NCBI RefSeq assembly: GCF_003367375.1
Contig: NZ_CP031416.1
Span: 379,501 to 443,500, forward strand
Reading direction: 5' to 3'
DNA: 64,000 nucleotides
Source: Gallaecimonas mangrovi
GTDB taxonomy: Bacteria; Pseudomonadota; Gammaproteobacteria; Enterobacterales; Gallaecimonadaceae
The notes beneath the pieces are model-generated. The model was not told the DNA's origin. It saw only the letters and a program-made list of their open reading frames with translations, and did not search any database. Below, one piece after another: positions 6,977 through 12,756 of this stretch (positions are counted from its first letter, which is position 1; every line of letters begins with the position of its first letter). The translations under genes and the position numbers were made by a program.

Positions 6977-8317
6977 TTAAGCGTCAAGGCCGTAACGTTC
7001 CAGCTTTTTCAGCAGCCCTTGCCGGGATAAACCCAATTGCCGCGCGGCAGCCGAGCGGTTGCCTTGCTGCTGCGCCAGTGACTGGCTGATAAGGCGAATT
7101 TCCAGCGCCCTGACTTGCTCTTCCAGGCTGTCGCCTTGGGCTTCTGTCGCGTCGCTGGTTGGGTACAACAGGGCAATGTCGTCCAGCCTGACCACCTGGC
7201 TTTGGCAAATAGCAGCAACCGATTCCAGGGTATTTTTTAGCTCCCTTACATTACCCGGCCAGCTGCGCGCCAAAAACCACTGCCGTGCTGACGGTGAAAG
7301 GCGAAGGCTGCGGCCCGAACGGCGGCTCCATTCTGCCAGCAGGTTTTCGCACAAAAGCGGTAAATCTTCTGGGCGGTCATCAAGGGCCGGGGTGTTCAGG
7401 TTCACGCCTTTTATCCGATAGAACAAATCTTCACGAAAACTGCCCTCGGCAACCCGTTGTTGCAAGTCAGCATTAGTGGCAGAAATAACGCGCACATCAA
7501 TGCTTTGCTGTTCGCGCCCACCCACAGGGTAAAAGGTGCCTTCTTGCAGTACCCGCAGCAGTTTTACCTGCATCGACAATGGCATATCGCCAATTTCATC
7601 GAGAAACAGGCTGCCTTTATCGGCCATGGTCAGCAGGCCAGGGCGGTCGCGGTCGGCGCCGGTAAAGGCGCCTTTTTTGTAGCCAAAGAGTTCACTTTCC
7701 AGAAGTTCTGCCGGAATAGCGCCGCAATGCACCGAGATAAAAGGCCCCTCGGCGCGGCGCGATAACTTATGCAGCGCGCGGCTGACCATTTCTTTACCGG
7801 TGCCTGAAGGGCCGGTTACCAACACCGGCACATCGGTGGGGGCAATGCGCTGAATAAGGGCTTTGAGGTTAGCCATGGCCTGGCCAGCGCCGACTAACTC
7901 ATCAAGCGGCCCCTGGCTGGCTTTACGCAAAAGGCTTAGCTCACGGGTGAGATTTTGCTTGGTCAGTGCCCGGCGAATAACCACCGCCAGCATGTCAGGG
8001 TCAACCGGTTTGGCCAGAAAATCCCAGGCGCCTTTGGCCATGGCGGTGAGCGCGAGTTGCCGCTCGGCATGACCGGTAAGAATAATCACCGGCCGGTCGC
8101 CAAGGCTGGGTAGGGCCTCCAAGGTGTGGTCCGGGCTCATTTCCGGCGGCAGCGCCAGGTCTAGCAATATCAGGTCGGCATCAAAATCGCTGAGCCGGGC
8201 TTTGGCCTCAGCCAGGTTATGGGCGCTTTGCACTTCATAGCCGTCTTCGGTTAGCCAGGCGCTGGCCAGTTCGCAAAAGGCGACTTCGTCATCTACCAGC
8301 AAAATGCGGCCTGTCAT
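6977..8317 (-). CDS. Sigma-54-dependent response regulator (NtrC family)
   Basis: Receiver-AAA+-Fis activator of 446 aa. Receiver: acidic pair DDE near residue 10, phospho-acceptor Asp53 (LILLDLALP), Thr of LTGH and Lys of AKPVD. AAA+ domain: Walker A GPSGTGKE, the GAFTGAD loop that contacts sigma-54, and Walker [10 protein letters not shown]. The C-terminal Fis-type helix-turn-helix is [20 protein letters not shown]. The ATG overlaps the kinase stop (ATGA), so kinase and regulator form a two-component pair. A perfect -24/-12 promoter lies just beyond the kinase gene, in front of the bd-oxidase operon, which is the obvious target. PEP-CTERM PrsR has a similar layout, but no such locus is near. 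Confidence 0.92.
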
Positions 8318-10077
8318 AAGGGAAACTCCAATTCGAAGGTAATGGGCCAGCCCAAATCGGTGCGCAGTCTAACCGCTCCGCCATGGGCTTGCATAATCCT
8401 CTCGACGATGGCCAGGCCCAAACCAGAACCGCCAGGCCTTTTGGTCACAAAGGGCCGGAATAATCGCTCAGTCAGCTCCTCTGCAATGGCGGGGCCATCG
8501 TTATGCACGCGAACCACGCGGCCGCTCGCTTCCACAAGGATGCGGCTATTGGCAAAGGCTTTGGCATTTTCTAAGAGGTTAACCAGCACTTGGCTAAGCC
8601 GGTGTGGGTCGACATTGAGCTGCAGGCCCGCTTCTATTGCCAGTTCCACGCCTTGGCTTTGTGGCAGACTTTTTACCAGCGCTTCAACGGCAACCGCTTG
8701 TTTTTCAATTTGCGGGTTACCGCCGTAGGTTAGTAAGTCTTGGATCAAACGGTCGGCGCGGCGTAGCTGCTCTTGGATGTAACTGCGGGTGTTGTCCTCG
8801 GTGCGGGCGCAGGCCATGGCAATGATATTAAGGGGATTACGCAGTTCATGTGCCATGGCCGCAGATAGCGCCCCTAGCTCCACCAAATGCTGCTGGTCCA
8901 GGCGGCGCTTTTCTTCTTCGGCCAGTTCCAAAGTGCGCTCTAGGTTGTCGCAAGCACTGGCCAGCAGCGAGGCGAAAATTTCAATTTGCAGGCGCTGGGC
9001 AGGCAGCAGCTCTTCACCGCCAGTCACGTTCACCTGCCAAAGCTGGCCATGGCTGTAACAGCAAAGATGCGGGCCTTCATCACTGCCGATTTGGCTGACG
9101 GTAATGGCCAGATTAAGGTCTTGTTGCAGCAGCTGCTCGGCATCTTGCATCAGCGTTGGCCAGTCGCTGGCTTGGCGTAGCCGGCTTCGCCAGCGGGCAA
9201 GAAGCTGTTCGTCAAGGCGCGCACCGGGGTAAATCAGCTGGCGTACCCAGCGGCTGAGCACCGGGTAAAGCACGGCGCTGGCGGCCAGTATCACCAAGGA
9301 GTAGGTCCAGAGCACCAGCCAGGAACGAGTAAAGCCCAGACTGGCGGCAAGTACCGAGGCAACCCCTACCAGCAGCGCCAACCCCAAGCCAATAAGAATG
9401 CGGCTGGCCCACTGGTTCACTTCCAGCATCCGGTAGCGCATCACCGCAAACACCAGCAGCAACACGTAACTGGGCAGCGCTAACATGGCGTAAGGGAAGT
9501 AATTGATGCCAAGGGACGGGAACACAAAACTCGACGCTAACAGCAGCCCCCAGCCGCCCACCATGAAGATGGCCAGAATAGAGCGCCGTACCGTACTTTT
9601 TTGTTCGCCCCAGGCTTTAAGCAGCACCCCGTGGGCGCAGATCCCAAGAAAAACGGTCCAGCCAAGATTCAGCCAGCCCAGCGGGTGCAGGTGAATAAAA
9701 CCGCTAAAGGGCGGCCAGGGCGAAATGCTGGCACCGCCAAAGAGGCTACACAGGAAAATAAAAGCGCTGGTGCCGTAGCTTAAACGCAGCAGCCTGCGCT
9801 TACGGGCCGGGTGCGTTGTCAGGTAGCCCAAGGCGAAATGCAAGAAGGTGTTGGGCATAAAAGGGTTGGCAAGCAGCAGTGGTAATGCCAACCCGGGACT
9901 GTAAGGACTGAGCAGATGGCCCAGGCACCAAAGTCCCATCATCGCCACAAAGCCGGCCAGGGGTCGGAGGTCAGTTTGTCGCCACAACCACAATGCCGTG
10001 GCCAAGCCGCTCAGCAGGGTGGCACTCATGGCGACTTGGAACACCACCACTAACTCAGGTGTAAACATCGTTGACAC
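8314..10077 (-). CDS. Membrane-bound sensor histidine kinase
   Basis: A 587-aa kinase paired with the downstream sigma-54 regulator. The first ~270 residues hold about eight to nine hydrophobic segments with no recognised sensor fold. A GAF-like stretch and a short coiled coil (about 380-400) follow, then the H box with phospho-His410 (MAHELRNPLN), N box NLLENA (500-505) and G box GGSGLGLA (549-556). GTG 10077 follows GAGGAAAGT; ATG 10068 is an alternative. It is divergent from the bd-oxidase operon. A multi-helix sensor could read quinone redox state or a membrane-soluble signal, but that is inference. Confidence 0.9.
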   Translation of the reverse strand: MSTMFTPELVVVFQVAMSATLLSGLATALWLWRQTDLRPLAGFVAMMGLWCLGHLLSPYSPGLALPLLLANPFMPNTFLHFALGYLTTHPARKRRLLRLSYGTSAFIFLCSLFGGASISPWPPFSGFIHLHPLGWLNLGWTVFLGICAHGVLLKAWGEQKSTVRRSILAIFMVGGWGLLLASSFVFPSLGINYFPYAMLALPSYVLLLVFAVMRYRMLEVNQWASRILIGLGLALLVGVASVLAASLGFTRSWLVLWTYSLVILAASAVLYPVLSRWVRQLIYPGARLDEQLLARWRSRLRQASDWPTLMQDAEQLLQQDLNLAITVSQIGSDEGPHLCCYSHGQLWQVNVTGGEELLPAQRLQIEIFASLLASACDNLERTLELAEEEKRRLDQQHLVELGALSAAMAHELRNPLNIIAMACARTEDNTRSYIQEQLRRADRLIQDLLTYGGNPQIEKQAVAVEALVKSLPQSQGVELAIEAGLQLNVDPHRLSQVLVNLLENAKAFANSRILVEASGRVVRVHNDGPAIAEELTERLFRPFVTKRPGGSGLGLAIVERIMQAHGGAVRLRTDLGWPITFELEFPL

Positions 10078-10091
10078 TTTCCTCTATTTTG

Positions 10092-10110
10092 TCGTCAACG
10101 CTGTTGACGA
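10092..10110. promoter_or_regulatory. Perfect inverted repeat, candidate enhancer for the sigma-54 activator
   Basis: TCGTCAAC-gct-GTTGACGA is a perfect 8-bp inverted repeat. A further GTTGAC half site lies at 10070-10075 inside the kinase start region. The centre is about 88 bases before the start point expected from the -24/-12 element, the usual distance for an NtrC-family activator. It could also autoregulate the kinase operon. Confidence 0.6.
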
Positions 10111-10162
10111 ACTGGCGGCAGCTTAACGCCGGAAATTGACGTAAATCAAGGCTTCGCCAAGT

Positions 10163-10178
10163 TGGCACGACCTTTGCG
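10163..10178 (+). promoter_or_regulatory. Sigma-54 (-24/-12) promoter of the bd-oxidase operon
   Basis: TGGCACGACCTTTGCG matches the consensus TGGCAC-R-N4-TTGCW with correct GG-GC spacing; only the last base differs. Transcription would start near 10189, about 26 bases before the small first ORF. No good sigma-70 promoter is evident. Confidence 0.85.
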
Positions 10179-10214
10179 ACAAGTTGGCACGTTGTCTTCT
10201 GCAAGGTGTAGACC

Positions 10215-10307
10215 ATGAGTCAATTTCTCCCTGACCTTTTACTGGTATTAAGCAGCATTGTGCTGGCTTCTCTTCCTTGGCTCTTCAGTCGTTGGGTGCG
10301 GAGGTAA
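10215..10307 (+). CDS. 30-residue single-helix membrane peptide, first gene of the bd-oxidase operon
   Basis: ATG 10215 to TAA 10305-10307 encodes 30 residues. AAGGTG lies eight bases before the ATG. The peptide has a short polar start, one hydrophobic helix (residues 7-24, LLLVLSSIVLASLPWLF) and a basic end (RWVRR). It ends three bases before the GTG of cioA, and its last codons supply the cioA ribosome site (GGAGG). I do not recognise a family. It is not like CydX or the DUF2474 peptide at the operon's other end. It may be an oxidase subunit, an assembly factor, or a leader peptide coupling translation to cioA. Confidence 0.6.
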   Translation: MSQFLPDLLLVLSSIVLASLPWLFSRWVRR

Positions 10308-10310
10308 GTC

Positions 10311-11705
10311 GTGGATGTAGCGCTGTTGTCACGTCTCCAGTTTGCCTGGACCGTGAGCCTTCATATCCTGTTTCCGACCATGACTATCGGCTTGGCGGTG
10401 TTGATCGCAACCTGGGAAGGGTTGTGGCTCAAGACGCGCGATCCCCGTTATTTGCAGTTAGCTAAATTCTGGATAAAACCCTTTGCCATTACCTTTGGCT
10501 CAGGCGTGGTGACCGGCATTGTGCTCTCTTATGAGTTCGGCACCAACTTTAGTGAATTCTCGCACATTGTTGGCCCTGTGCTTGGGCCTTTGATGACCTA
10601 CGAAGTGATGACCGCCTTCTTCTTGGAAGCGGGCTTCTTGGGTGTGATGTTATTTGGCTGGCAGCGTGTTGGTGAAAAACTGCACTTCTTCGCCACCGTG
10701 GTGGTAGCCATTGGTACCGTGCTGTCGGCGTTTTGGATTTTGGCAGCAAACTCTTGGATGCAAACCCCGGCGGGTTACGCCTTTGAGGGCGGTCAGTACG
10801 TACCGGTTGACTGGTTTAAAGTGATTTTTAACCCCAGTTTCCCCATTCGTCTGGTGCATATGCTGCTGGCGACCTTCCTGACCGCCAACTTCTTGGTAGC
10901 CGGTATCAGCGCCTGGTTTTTACTTAAAGGCTACGACCGTGAGTTTGCCAAACGCGGCCTGTCATTGTCGTTGTGGTTCATTCTTATTCTGGCGCCGCTG
11001 CAAGCCTTTGTTGGCGACGAGCACGGCCTGGAAGTAAAAGAACATCAGCCGGTTAAACTGGCGGCGATGGAAGGTATTTGGGACAAGGTTGAGCACAGCC
11101 CGGCGCTGCGTTTATTCGCCATCCCTGATGAAAAAACCGAAACCAACCATCTGGAAGTCAAAATTCCGTATCTGGCGTCGATCATTCTGACCCACAGCTT
11201 GCACGGTGAAGTGCAAGGCCTGAAGTCGGTGCCGGCACAAGACCGCCCACCGCTGCTGCCCGTGTTCTTTGCCTTTAGGGTGATGGTTGGCCTTGGGGTG
11301 TTGATGGTACTGGTTGCCTTCTTTGCCAACTGGCAGCGCCGCGGTGCCCGCTTGTACGAAAACAAATGGTTACTGAAGTTGCTGGTGTTGATGACCCCGG
11401 CTGGCCTTATCGCCACTGTAGCTGGCTGGTGGGTTGTGGAAATTGGTCGTCAGCCTTGGTTGGTATATGGCTTGGTGCGGACTGAACAAGTGGTGTCGAA
11501 GCTGCCTGCCGAGCGTGTGGCTATTTCCTTTGCCCTGTTCGTGGTGACCTACTTGGCATTGCTGACCGCCTTCTTGCACTTCTACCGCAAGCTGGTTCGT
11601 AAAGGCCCGCCTGATATGGCCAAGCTGGAGAGTCAGGTGATCGGTATGAAAGCGCCGGGTTATGCCCTGAACTGGGTACGTGAACTCAAGAAGGAAGGCT
11701 TCTGA
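10311..11705 (+). CDS. cioA: Cytochrome bd-type quinol oxidase subunit I, cyanide-insensitive (CioA) type
   Basis: Catalytic subunit of a bd-family terminal oxidase that reduces oxygen to water with quinol electrons. At 464 aa it has the short Q-loop of CioA rather than the long one of E. coli CydA (522 aa). Visible: b595 ligand His18 (SLHILFP), b558 ligands His183 (LVHMLLA) and Met325 (FRVMVGLG), quinol-site Lys249/Glu254 (QPVKLAAMEG) and GRQPW (379-383). GTG 10311 follows GGAGG by six bases. A sigma-54 promoter drives the operon 10215-12756. Confidence 0.95.
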   Translation: MDVALLSRLQFAWTVSLHILFPTMTIGLAVLIATWEGLWLKTRDPRYLQLAKFWIKPFAITFGSGVVTGIVLSYEFGTNFSEFSHIVGPVLGPLMTYEVMTAFFLEAGFLGVMLFGWQRVGEKLHFFATVVVAIGTVLSAFWILAANSWMQTPAGYAFEGGQYVPVDWFKVIFNPSFPIRLVHMLLATFLTANFLVAGISAWFLLKGYDREFAKRGLSLSLWFILILAPLQAFVGDEHGLEVKEHQPVKLAAMEGIWDKVEHSPALRLFAIPDEKTETNHLEVKIPYLASIILTHSLHGEVQGLKSVPAQDRPPLLPVFFAFRVMVGLGVLMVLVAFFANWQRRGARLYENKWLLKLLVLMTPAGLIATVAGWWVVEIGRQPWLVYGLVRTEQVVSKLPAERVAISFALFVVTYLALLTAFLHFYRKLVRKGPPDMAKLESQVIGMKAPGYALNWVRELKKEGF

Positions 11706-12658
11706 TGGAACTGTTTTATTTCCTGCTGCTCGGCTTTGCCATCCTGATGTACGTGGTGTTAGACGGCTTTGACTTGGGCTTGGGTATTTTGTACCCGGCC
11801 CTGCCCGAACAACACGACCGCGACATGATGATGCGTTCCGTTTCTCACGTCTGGGACGGTAACGAAACCTGGTTGGTTTTTGGTGGGGTGATTTTGATGG
11901 GCGCCTTTCCTGCCGCCTACGCCACCTTGTTGCCAACGCTGTATTTGCCTATTTGCCTGATGCTGATATCGCTAATTTTCCGTGGTATCGCCTTTGAATA
12001 TCGCTTTAAGGCCACCAGCTCTCGCCAGTGGTGGGACCTGGCCTTTGGTTTGGGGTCATCCGTTGCGGCTTTTTGCCAAGGCCTCATGCTGGGTAGCTTA
12101 GTGCAATCTGGCGGTGAGCAATTATTAACGCCCTTTAGCATTTTAACGGCTTTTGCGGTGATGGCAGGTTATGCCTTGTTGGGTGCCACTTACTTAGTGG
12201 TTAAAACCTCGGGTGCCCTGCAAGACAAAGCTAAGCGCTTGGTTAAACCGCTATTGGCGCTGGTGATCATTGCCATGGTTGCGGTGAGCCTTTGGAACTT
12301 CTTGGCGGTGCCTTCTGTGCATACCCGCTGGATGAGTAACATCGGCTGGTTGTGGCCTATCCCGTTTATCACTGCGGTGATTGCTTTTGCGCTCTTTAAG
12401 AGTCTTAAACACTCTGAAGTGGCACCGTTTTACTGCGCCGTTGCGCTCTTTGTAATGGGCTTTATCGGTCTGGTAGTGGGTTTATTCCCCTACCTGGTAC
12501 CGGGCCGGTTAAGCCTGTTCGACGCCGCTGCACCTCGTCAAAGCCTGACGTTCCTGCTGCCTGGCGTGCTGATTTTCGTTCCCATCATTCTGGCTTACAC
12601 CCTGTGGGGTTACCGGATCTTCCGTGGCAAGGTTCACGACTTTGAGGAGGGTTACTGA
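11705..12658 (+). CDS. cioB: Cytochrome bd-type quinol oxidase subunit II, CioB type
   Basis: Second core subunit of the same oxidase, 317 aa, about eight membrane helices. The N-terminus has the CydB signature YVVLDGFDLGLGIL and the WDGNETWLVFGG motif. It is shorter than E. coli CydB (379 aa), as in cyanide-insensitive oxidases. ATG 11705 overlaps the cioA TGA by one base, and its TGA shares one base with the ATG of the DUF2474 peptide. No cydDC exporter genes lie nearby. Confidence 0.95.
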   Translation: MELFYFLLLGFAILMYVVLDGFDLGLGILYPALPEQHDRDMMMRSVSHVWDGNETWLVFGGVILMGAFPAAYATLLPTLYLPICLMLISLIFRGIAFEYRFKATSSRQWWDLAFGLGSSVAAFCQGLMLGSLVQSGGEQLLTPFSILTAFAVMAGYALLGATYLVVKTSGALQDKAKRLVKPLLALVIIAMVAVSLWNFLAVPSVHTRWMSNIGWLWPIPFITAVIAFALFKSLKHSEVAPFYCAVALFVMGFIGLVVGLFPYLVPGRLSLFDAAAPRQSLTFLLPGVLIFVPIILAYTLWGYRIFRGKVHDFEEGY

Positions 12659-12756
12659 TGGCTAAAAAATGGATGTGGTTTGTGGGTCTTTATCTAGGCG
12701 GCCTTGGCAGCCTGTCGATAGTGGCTTTCTCACTGCGTTGGCTTTTGCTCAGCTGA
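12658..12756 (+). CDS. DUF2474-family small bd-oxidase operon peptide
   Basis: A 32-residue peptide with a MAKKWMWFVGLYLGG start and one membrane helix. It overlaps the cioB stop by one base. This is the DUF2474 pattern (basic start, W-x-F-x-G-L-Y) found as last gene of cyanide-insensitive oxidase operons. By analogy with CydX it probably binds and stabilises the oxidase. Confidence 0.8.
   Translation: MAKKWMWFVGLYLGGLGSLSIVAFSLRWLLLS

Follow-up and report, generated by a model that had tools for sequence, protein, structure and literature searches.

A predicted one-helix membrane peptide encoded ahead of cioA marks one clade of CioAB oxidases

The small subunits of bd oxidases decide the assembly of the enzyme, the stability of its hemes and the access of oxygen and, to our knowledge, the CIO-type enzymes have received little direct study even as regards their DUF2474 subunit. 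The cioAB operon studied here lies in a 64,000-nucleotide stretch of the Gallaecimonas mangrovi genome (hereafter, the window) and opens with a short reading frame that raises two questions: does it encode a protein and, if so, does this protein serve the oxidase or the sensor kinase encoded beside it? The frame runs from 10215 to 10307 on the forward strand (ATG at 10215, TAA at 10305-10307). Its product of 30 residues, MSQFLPDLLLVLSSIVLASLPWLFSRWVRR, has a single hydrophobic stretch followed by the basic end RWVRR and is predicted to be a single-helix membrane peptide. A ribosome-binding site, AAGGTG (10203-10208), is located 6 nt 5' of the ATG and reads AAGGAG in relatives. The rest of the operon, on the same strand, is made up of cioA (10311-11705; CydA family, GTG start, Pfam match to Cyt_bd_oxida_I), cioB (11705-12658; CydB family, Pfam match to Cyt_bd_oxida_II), which overlaps cioA, and, at the operon end, a second small membrane peptide similar to DUF2474/CydZ (12658-12756; MAKKWMWFVGLYLGGLGSLSIVAFSLRWLLLS). 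This downstream peptide was detected automatically at 76 of the 86 loci covering cioB and by eye at most of the others; single members reach an E-value of 4e-5 with the DUF2474 profile, the window's own copy remaining below the threshold. Judging by their sequences, the small membrane proteins encoded on the two sides of cioAB are unrelated. The front peptide family has no match among the Pfam, NCBIfam and PDB sequence families, and the first-pass annotation, which had described an unrecognised 30-residue membrane peptide with its own ribosome site at the head of a bd-oxidase operon, is borne out on these points.

The possibility of a chance reading frame was rejected on the basis of a random-offset null and a codon analysis. 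The same kind of detector that fires at 86/86 cioA loci does so at 5 of 2971 random offsets (0.17%). In seven groups of sequences, synonymous change is in large excess in the peptide frame (dN/dS 0.09-0.25, Nei-Gojobori), and the raw pN/pS is 0.18-0.37 in this frame versus approximately 0.7 and above in each of the remaining frames; the cioA figures for the "Marinomonas short" group, distorted by an alignment offset, were left out of the codon analysis results. Among the four closest species, 47 of the 93 positions of the peptide gene are variable (18/7/22 by codon position). The ratio of synonymous to nonsynonymous change and the conservation of frame and start in relatives had been proposed at the outset as ways to check the gene; both frame and start are kept. 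The ORF is a genuine protein-coding gene, previously overlooked, and is presumably translated. The proposal that the peptide gene also supplies the GGAGG for cioA applies more narrowly. In the window, this motif (10300-10304), the likely ribosome-binding site of cioA, lies within the final peptide codons CGG AGG, 6 nt before the GTG at 10311, and the peptide stop ends 3 nt before that GTG. The arrangement is limited to the four closest species, and at the other loci a gap of between -5 and 207 nt separates the peptide gene from cioA, so that it is the reading frame, not the geometry, that is conserved.

The peptide gene is distributed along the phylogeny of CioA. A homologue is found upstream of cioA, as the first ORF, at 86 of the 87 loci of one CioA clade, which includes the Gallaecimonas-like genus, Zobellella, Oceanisphaera, Oceanimonas, Rheinheimera, Marinomonas, Marinobacterium and others. 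The whole-genome set has the ORF before cioA in all five members of the genus; 80 further loci came from a scan of named genomes with an alignment of CioA, and the count of 86/87 was obtained with larger gaps allowed. No such upstream peptide is present at the 41 CioAs outside the clade, which belong to the same order and class, nor in the paralogous cio operons of the window genome and a sister species. Three of these loci (L134, L145 and L157) seemed to have an upstream helix, but in each case it looks like part of the 3' end of a transporter gene that precedes cioA. The second cioAB of the window genome (L158, G000:C1:2198500-2202500) lacks the upstream peptide, and no DUF2474-like gene was detected there. 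In a CioA tree of 79 sequences, all 38 clade members fall on the same side of one branch (support 100/99), and the presence or absence of the peptide corresponds to one change on this tree. Profile searches of 274 genomes of the class and 398 of the phylum gave no credible match outside the clade; weak matches in longer frames and one antisense match (G486) were rejected as relatives. The plasmid collection contains no clade member, every CioA in it being below 60% identity, and four cio regions in it have no upstream peptide. The CioA proteins of the clade are also distinguished by a C-terminal tail, conserved among them and located beyond the last helix (window 11600-11702; K/R-GPP...G..A.GYAL), which is absent from the other CioAs compared.

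The sequences of the family share few but strict features. An acidic position is kept in all 78 distinct peptides (Glu in 66, Asp in 12) and a proline in 76 of the 78, both counts being slightly favoured by a bonus that the detector gave to these positions among overlapping ORFs. The residue three positions before the acidic one is Leu or Phe in 76/78. In nearly all of the 78, the flank of the helix is acidic or neutral on the N side and basic on the C side, for which reason the positive-inside rule predicts that the N-terminus is outside. The CydZ-like downstream peptides carry their more basic flank at the N-terminus, so that their orientation, as predicted from charge, is opposite to that of the front peptide. 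The family profile finds exactly one match per genome, at cioA, in 12/12 genomes and in 5/5 genus members, the test genomes being themselves represented in the profile. When the genus is left out, its deepest member (L006) still scores 32 bits and the four members of 30 residues, the window's own included, score 9-14 bits; for these four, homology depends in part on the bridge offered by L006 and on position.

The region upstream of the peptide suggests how the operon may be controlled. A sigma-54 (-24/-12) promoter-like site is located at 10162-10178 on the forward strand (TTGGCACGACCTTTGCG; 12/13 matches); at least 11 of the 13 consensus positions are matched upstream of the peptide at 52/86 loci, versus 0.5% of control positions. 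Upstream of the sigma-54-type site are paired inverted repeats of the form CGTMAAC-N3-GTTKACG with a spacing of 33-35 bp. In the window, one of them, a candidate enhancer site whose position is conserved in the genus, lies at 10093-10109 (CGTCAACGCTGTTGACG) and the other, 33 bp away, at 10061-10075 (GTAAACATCGTTGAC). An FNR-like box (10136-10149; TTGACGTAAATCAA) follows the inverted repeats and precedes the sigma-54-type site, and TTGAT-N4-ATCAA dyads occur in 26/86 upstream regions. The genes that adjoin the operon on the reverse strand encode a histidine kinase with an N-terminal 7TM region (8314-10068) and its paired sigma-54 response regulator of the NtrC type (6977-8317). A homologue of the kinase adjoins the operon at 86/86 peptide-bearing loci, and the regulator is seen at 79/86, the sequence examined at the remainder perhaps ending short of it; the CioAs outside the clade have no adjacent homologue of the kinase. 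The whole arrangement (window 6977-10178), with the kinase/regulator pair, the sigma-54-type promoter and the paired repeats before the cio operon, is clade-wide. None of the titles and abstracts returned by a literature search pointed to a cio operon under sigma-54 control.

Two main scenarios may explain a peptide gene in this position. The first, which we consider to have about an even chance of being right and which proceeds by analogy, is that the peptide is an accessory subunit, for assembly or stabilisation, of this clade of CioAB. The bd oxidases are rich in small one-helix subunits (PMC8951039, PMC4325964, PMC9104464). CydX and CydS bind along the transmembrane helices of CydA and are required for assembly or stability, CydH occupies the TM1/TM9 cleft (PMC8951039, PMC6853902), and CioY binds CioA in Campylobacter (PMC11955535). 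Since an accessory subunit is the commonest role of the peptides encoded in bd operons, docking on CioA is proposed here as well. In that case, the peptide would be the first product made from the sigma-54-type operon, would cross the inner membrane with one helix, from an N-terminus on the outer side to a basic C-terminus on the cytoplasmic side, and would dock on CioA, working beside the DUF2474/CydZ-like peptide whose gene closes the operon. The most plausible dock, although this is a guess, would be the TM1/TM9 cleft that is filled by CydH in the E. coli bd-I enzyme; it is favoured by a feature restricted to the CioA of this clade, a conserved tail in the cytoplasm that follows TM9 directly. 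An AlphaFold model of a single chain made up of peptide, linker and CioA (L037, stops read as Gly) gave the peptide helix a pLDDT of about 60-65 and no placement.

The probability of the subunit scenario is set no higher because the association of the peptide with the kinase is just as strict as that with cioA. The first-pass proposal that the operon encodes two different small subunits is supported, with the reservation that, for the same reason, the word subunit is an inference in the case of the front peptide, whose partner could be the kinase instead. Small membrane proteins can tune sensor kinases, as MgrB does with PhoQ, and the peptide could be a regulator of the neighbouring 7TM kinase, exerting feedback on it or reporting the state of the oxidase, a scenario that we take seriously although we regard it as rather unlikely. 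It would be the first product of a promoter presumably under the control of the kinase pair, and the kinase, as described above, adjoins every peptide-bearing locus and has no homologue beside the CioAs outside the clade. The sole broken copy of the gene points in the same direction: in Candidatus Oceanisphaera merdipullorum (L046, 2300-2520), the peptide frame is vestigial, with two stop codons, and the kinase, the regulator and the sigma-54 site are absent from the neighbourhood, cioA, cioB and the CydZ-like gene being kept. Nevertheless, this is a single event, the contig comes from a MAG and is short, and a kinase gene may be present in another part of the genome. The divergence of the peptide also follows that of the kinase (partial rank correlation of 0.54 given cioA) more closely than that of cioA (0.01 given the kinase), whereas the CydZ-like peptide, with values of 0.28 for the kinase given cioA and 0.32 for cioA given the kinase, stays slightly closer to cioA and cioB than to the kinase. 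The pattern of the front peptide is kept in most subsets of the data, with the exception of the Rheinheimera-type subset, where it tracks cioB instead (0.43 vs 0.11). Yet, the peptide gene is located between the kinase and cioA, so that linkage alone could produce the correlation with the kinase, and the slow evolution of cioA weakens the correlations with the latter. A specific form of this scenario, in which the peptide binds the 7TM kinase, and perhaps CioA too, and the state or the amount of the oxidase feeds back on the transcription of the operon, is likewise doubtful. Whichever of the two proteins is concerned, the enzyme or its sensor, a previously undescribed partner of it probably exists.

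Alternatively, the peptide could be a divergent member of a known family of small subunits (CydX, CydZ, CydH or CydP/DUF4492), with which it shares its size class and its association with an oxidase operon and, in the case of CydP, its position in front. This seems improbable, as the 44 peptide members tested give no profile match to CydX (PF08173), CydP (NF045611) or DUF4492 (PF14899), and the family has none to CydZ/DUF2474 (PF10617) or CydH/YnhF (NF033411) either. Single sequences of CydX, CydH, CydP and CydZ score no higher than 3.1 bits, the value obtained for E. coli CydH against the peptide family model, versus 42.8 bits for a member; profile comparison with the downstream peptides gave nothing, one column being aligned. 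In addition, the orientation suggested by charge is opposite to that of the CydZ-like peptides and of the window genome's own CydP.

Position and sequence features separate the peptide from the individual families as well. CydX and CydS are, like it, one-helix proteins and both are accessory subunits of a bd oxidase, but CydX is encoded 3' of cydB and has a WYF N-terminus, whereas the peptide precedes cioA in 86 loci. The only CydX match in the window genome is at the bd-I locus, in whose operon its CydX is located. CydZ is also a one-helix protein of CIO operons, and a relative of it ends this very operon; however, its gene follows cioB and it has a basic N-terminus and a Trp at the start of the helix, where the peptide has no conserved Trp. 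Profiles and position thus agree with the earlier description of a peptide unlike CydX and DUF2474 in an operon closed by a DUF2474/CydZ-like one. CydH (the CydY of E. coli, or YnhF) resembles the peptide in its length of about 30 residues and its one helix and is a second small subunit, beside CydX, but it is encoded away from the operon, and the peptide within it.

The front position does differ from that of CydX and DUF2474, as had been noted, but it has a precedent in CydP, which is small, has one helix and is encoded directly before subunit I in operons that end with another small-subunit gene. CydP was described before cydABX in Burkholderia, reported as confined to Burkholderiales, and is a Tn-seq fitness determinant in B. 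cenocepacia (PMC9104464). In the window genome, a match above the NCBIfam cut-off, the only one for this model, lies directly before its own cydABX; this bd-I operon (G000:C1:2661524-2664469; L001, L162) has CydP at the front and CydX at the end. There are thus earlier examples both of a small protein encoded at the front and of an operon with two such proteins. Nonetheless, CydP has a basic N-terminus and a longer hydrophilic C-terminus and belongs to bd-I operons with CydX, unlike the peptide, which belongs to a CIO-type operon. The best DUF4492 match in the window genome, below the cut-off at 19.8 bits, falls on the cydP locus (L173, G000:C1:2664371-2664487); judging by such sequence comparisons, CydP may belong with DUF4492 in a single family of small proteins encoded at the front.

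Other small proteins are known from the literature. The naming of CydX, CydY and CydZ by Allen et al. (2014) resulted from looking after cydB; these authors also mention, without data, that long-Q-loop operons without CydX have a small hydrophobic protein encoded ahead of cydAB (PMC4325964). The CioY/CydY of Campylobacter, a small component of the CioAB oxidase by co-immunoprecipitation (PMC11955535), is encoded after cydB and has conserved Trp, Pro and Tyr, whereas the peptide is encoded before cioA. CioP, in the cio-1 operon of B. cenocepacia, is likewise an unannotated putative small membrane subunit (PMC11742914); it was compared by description only, and the profile samples of the class and the phylum contain no relative of the peptide outside the clade. 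The papers that we searched describe neither the peptide family, nor its clade, nor a CIO operon in which it is combined with a CydZ-like peptide. Finally, it is very unlikely that the frame acts only through being translated, whether to couple the ribosomes to cioA or as a sensor of some condition: the frame is the first after the predicted promoter and holds the cioA GGAGG in the closest species, but its amino acids are under selection in the seven groups, its distance to cioA varies as given above and the RNA fold of the leader shows no unusual structure (z +0.57).

The peptide family is a marker of a single clade of enzymes present in several families of marine bacteria, and its short signature, together with its position, suffices to annotate it. 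If the accessory-subunit scenario is true, the number of subunits in this clade of enzymes would have to be revised to include a member of a second peptide family, unrelated to the first. In either case, the peptide allows a well-defined test of which of the two, the enzyme or its sensor, is served by peptides of this kind.
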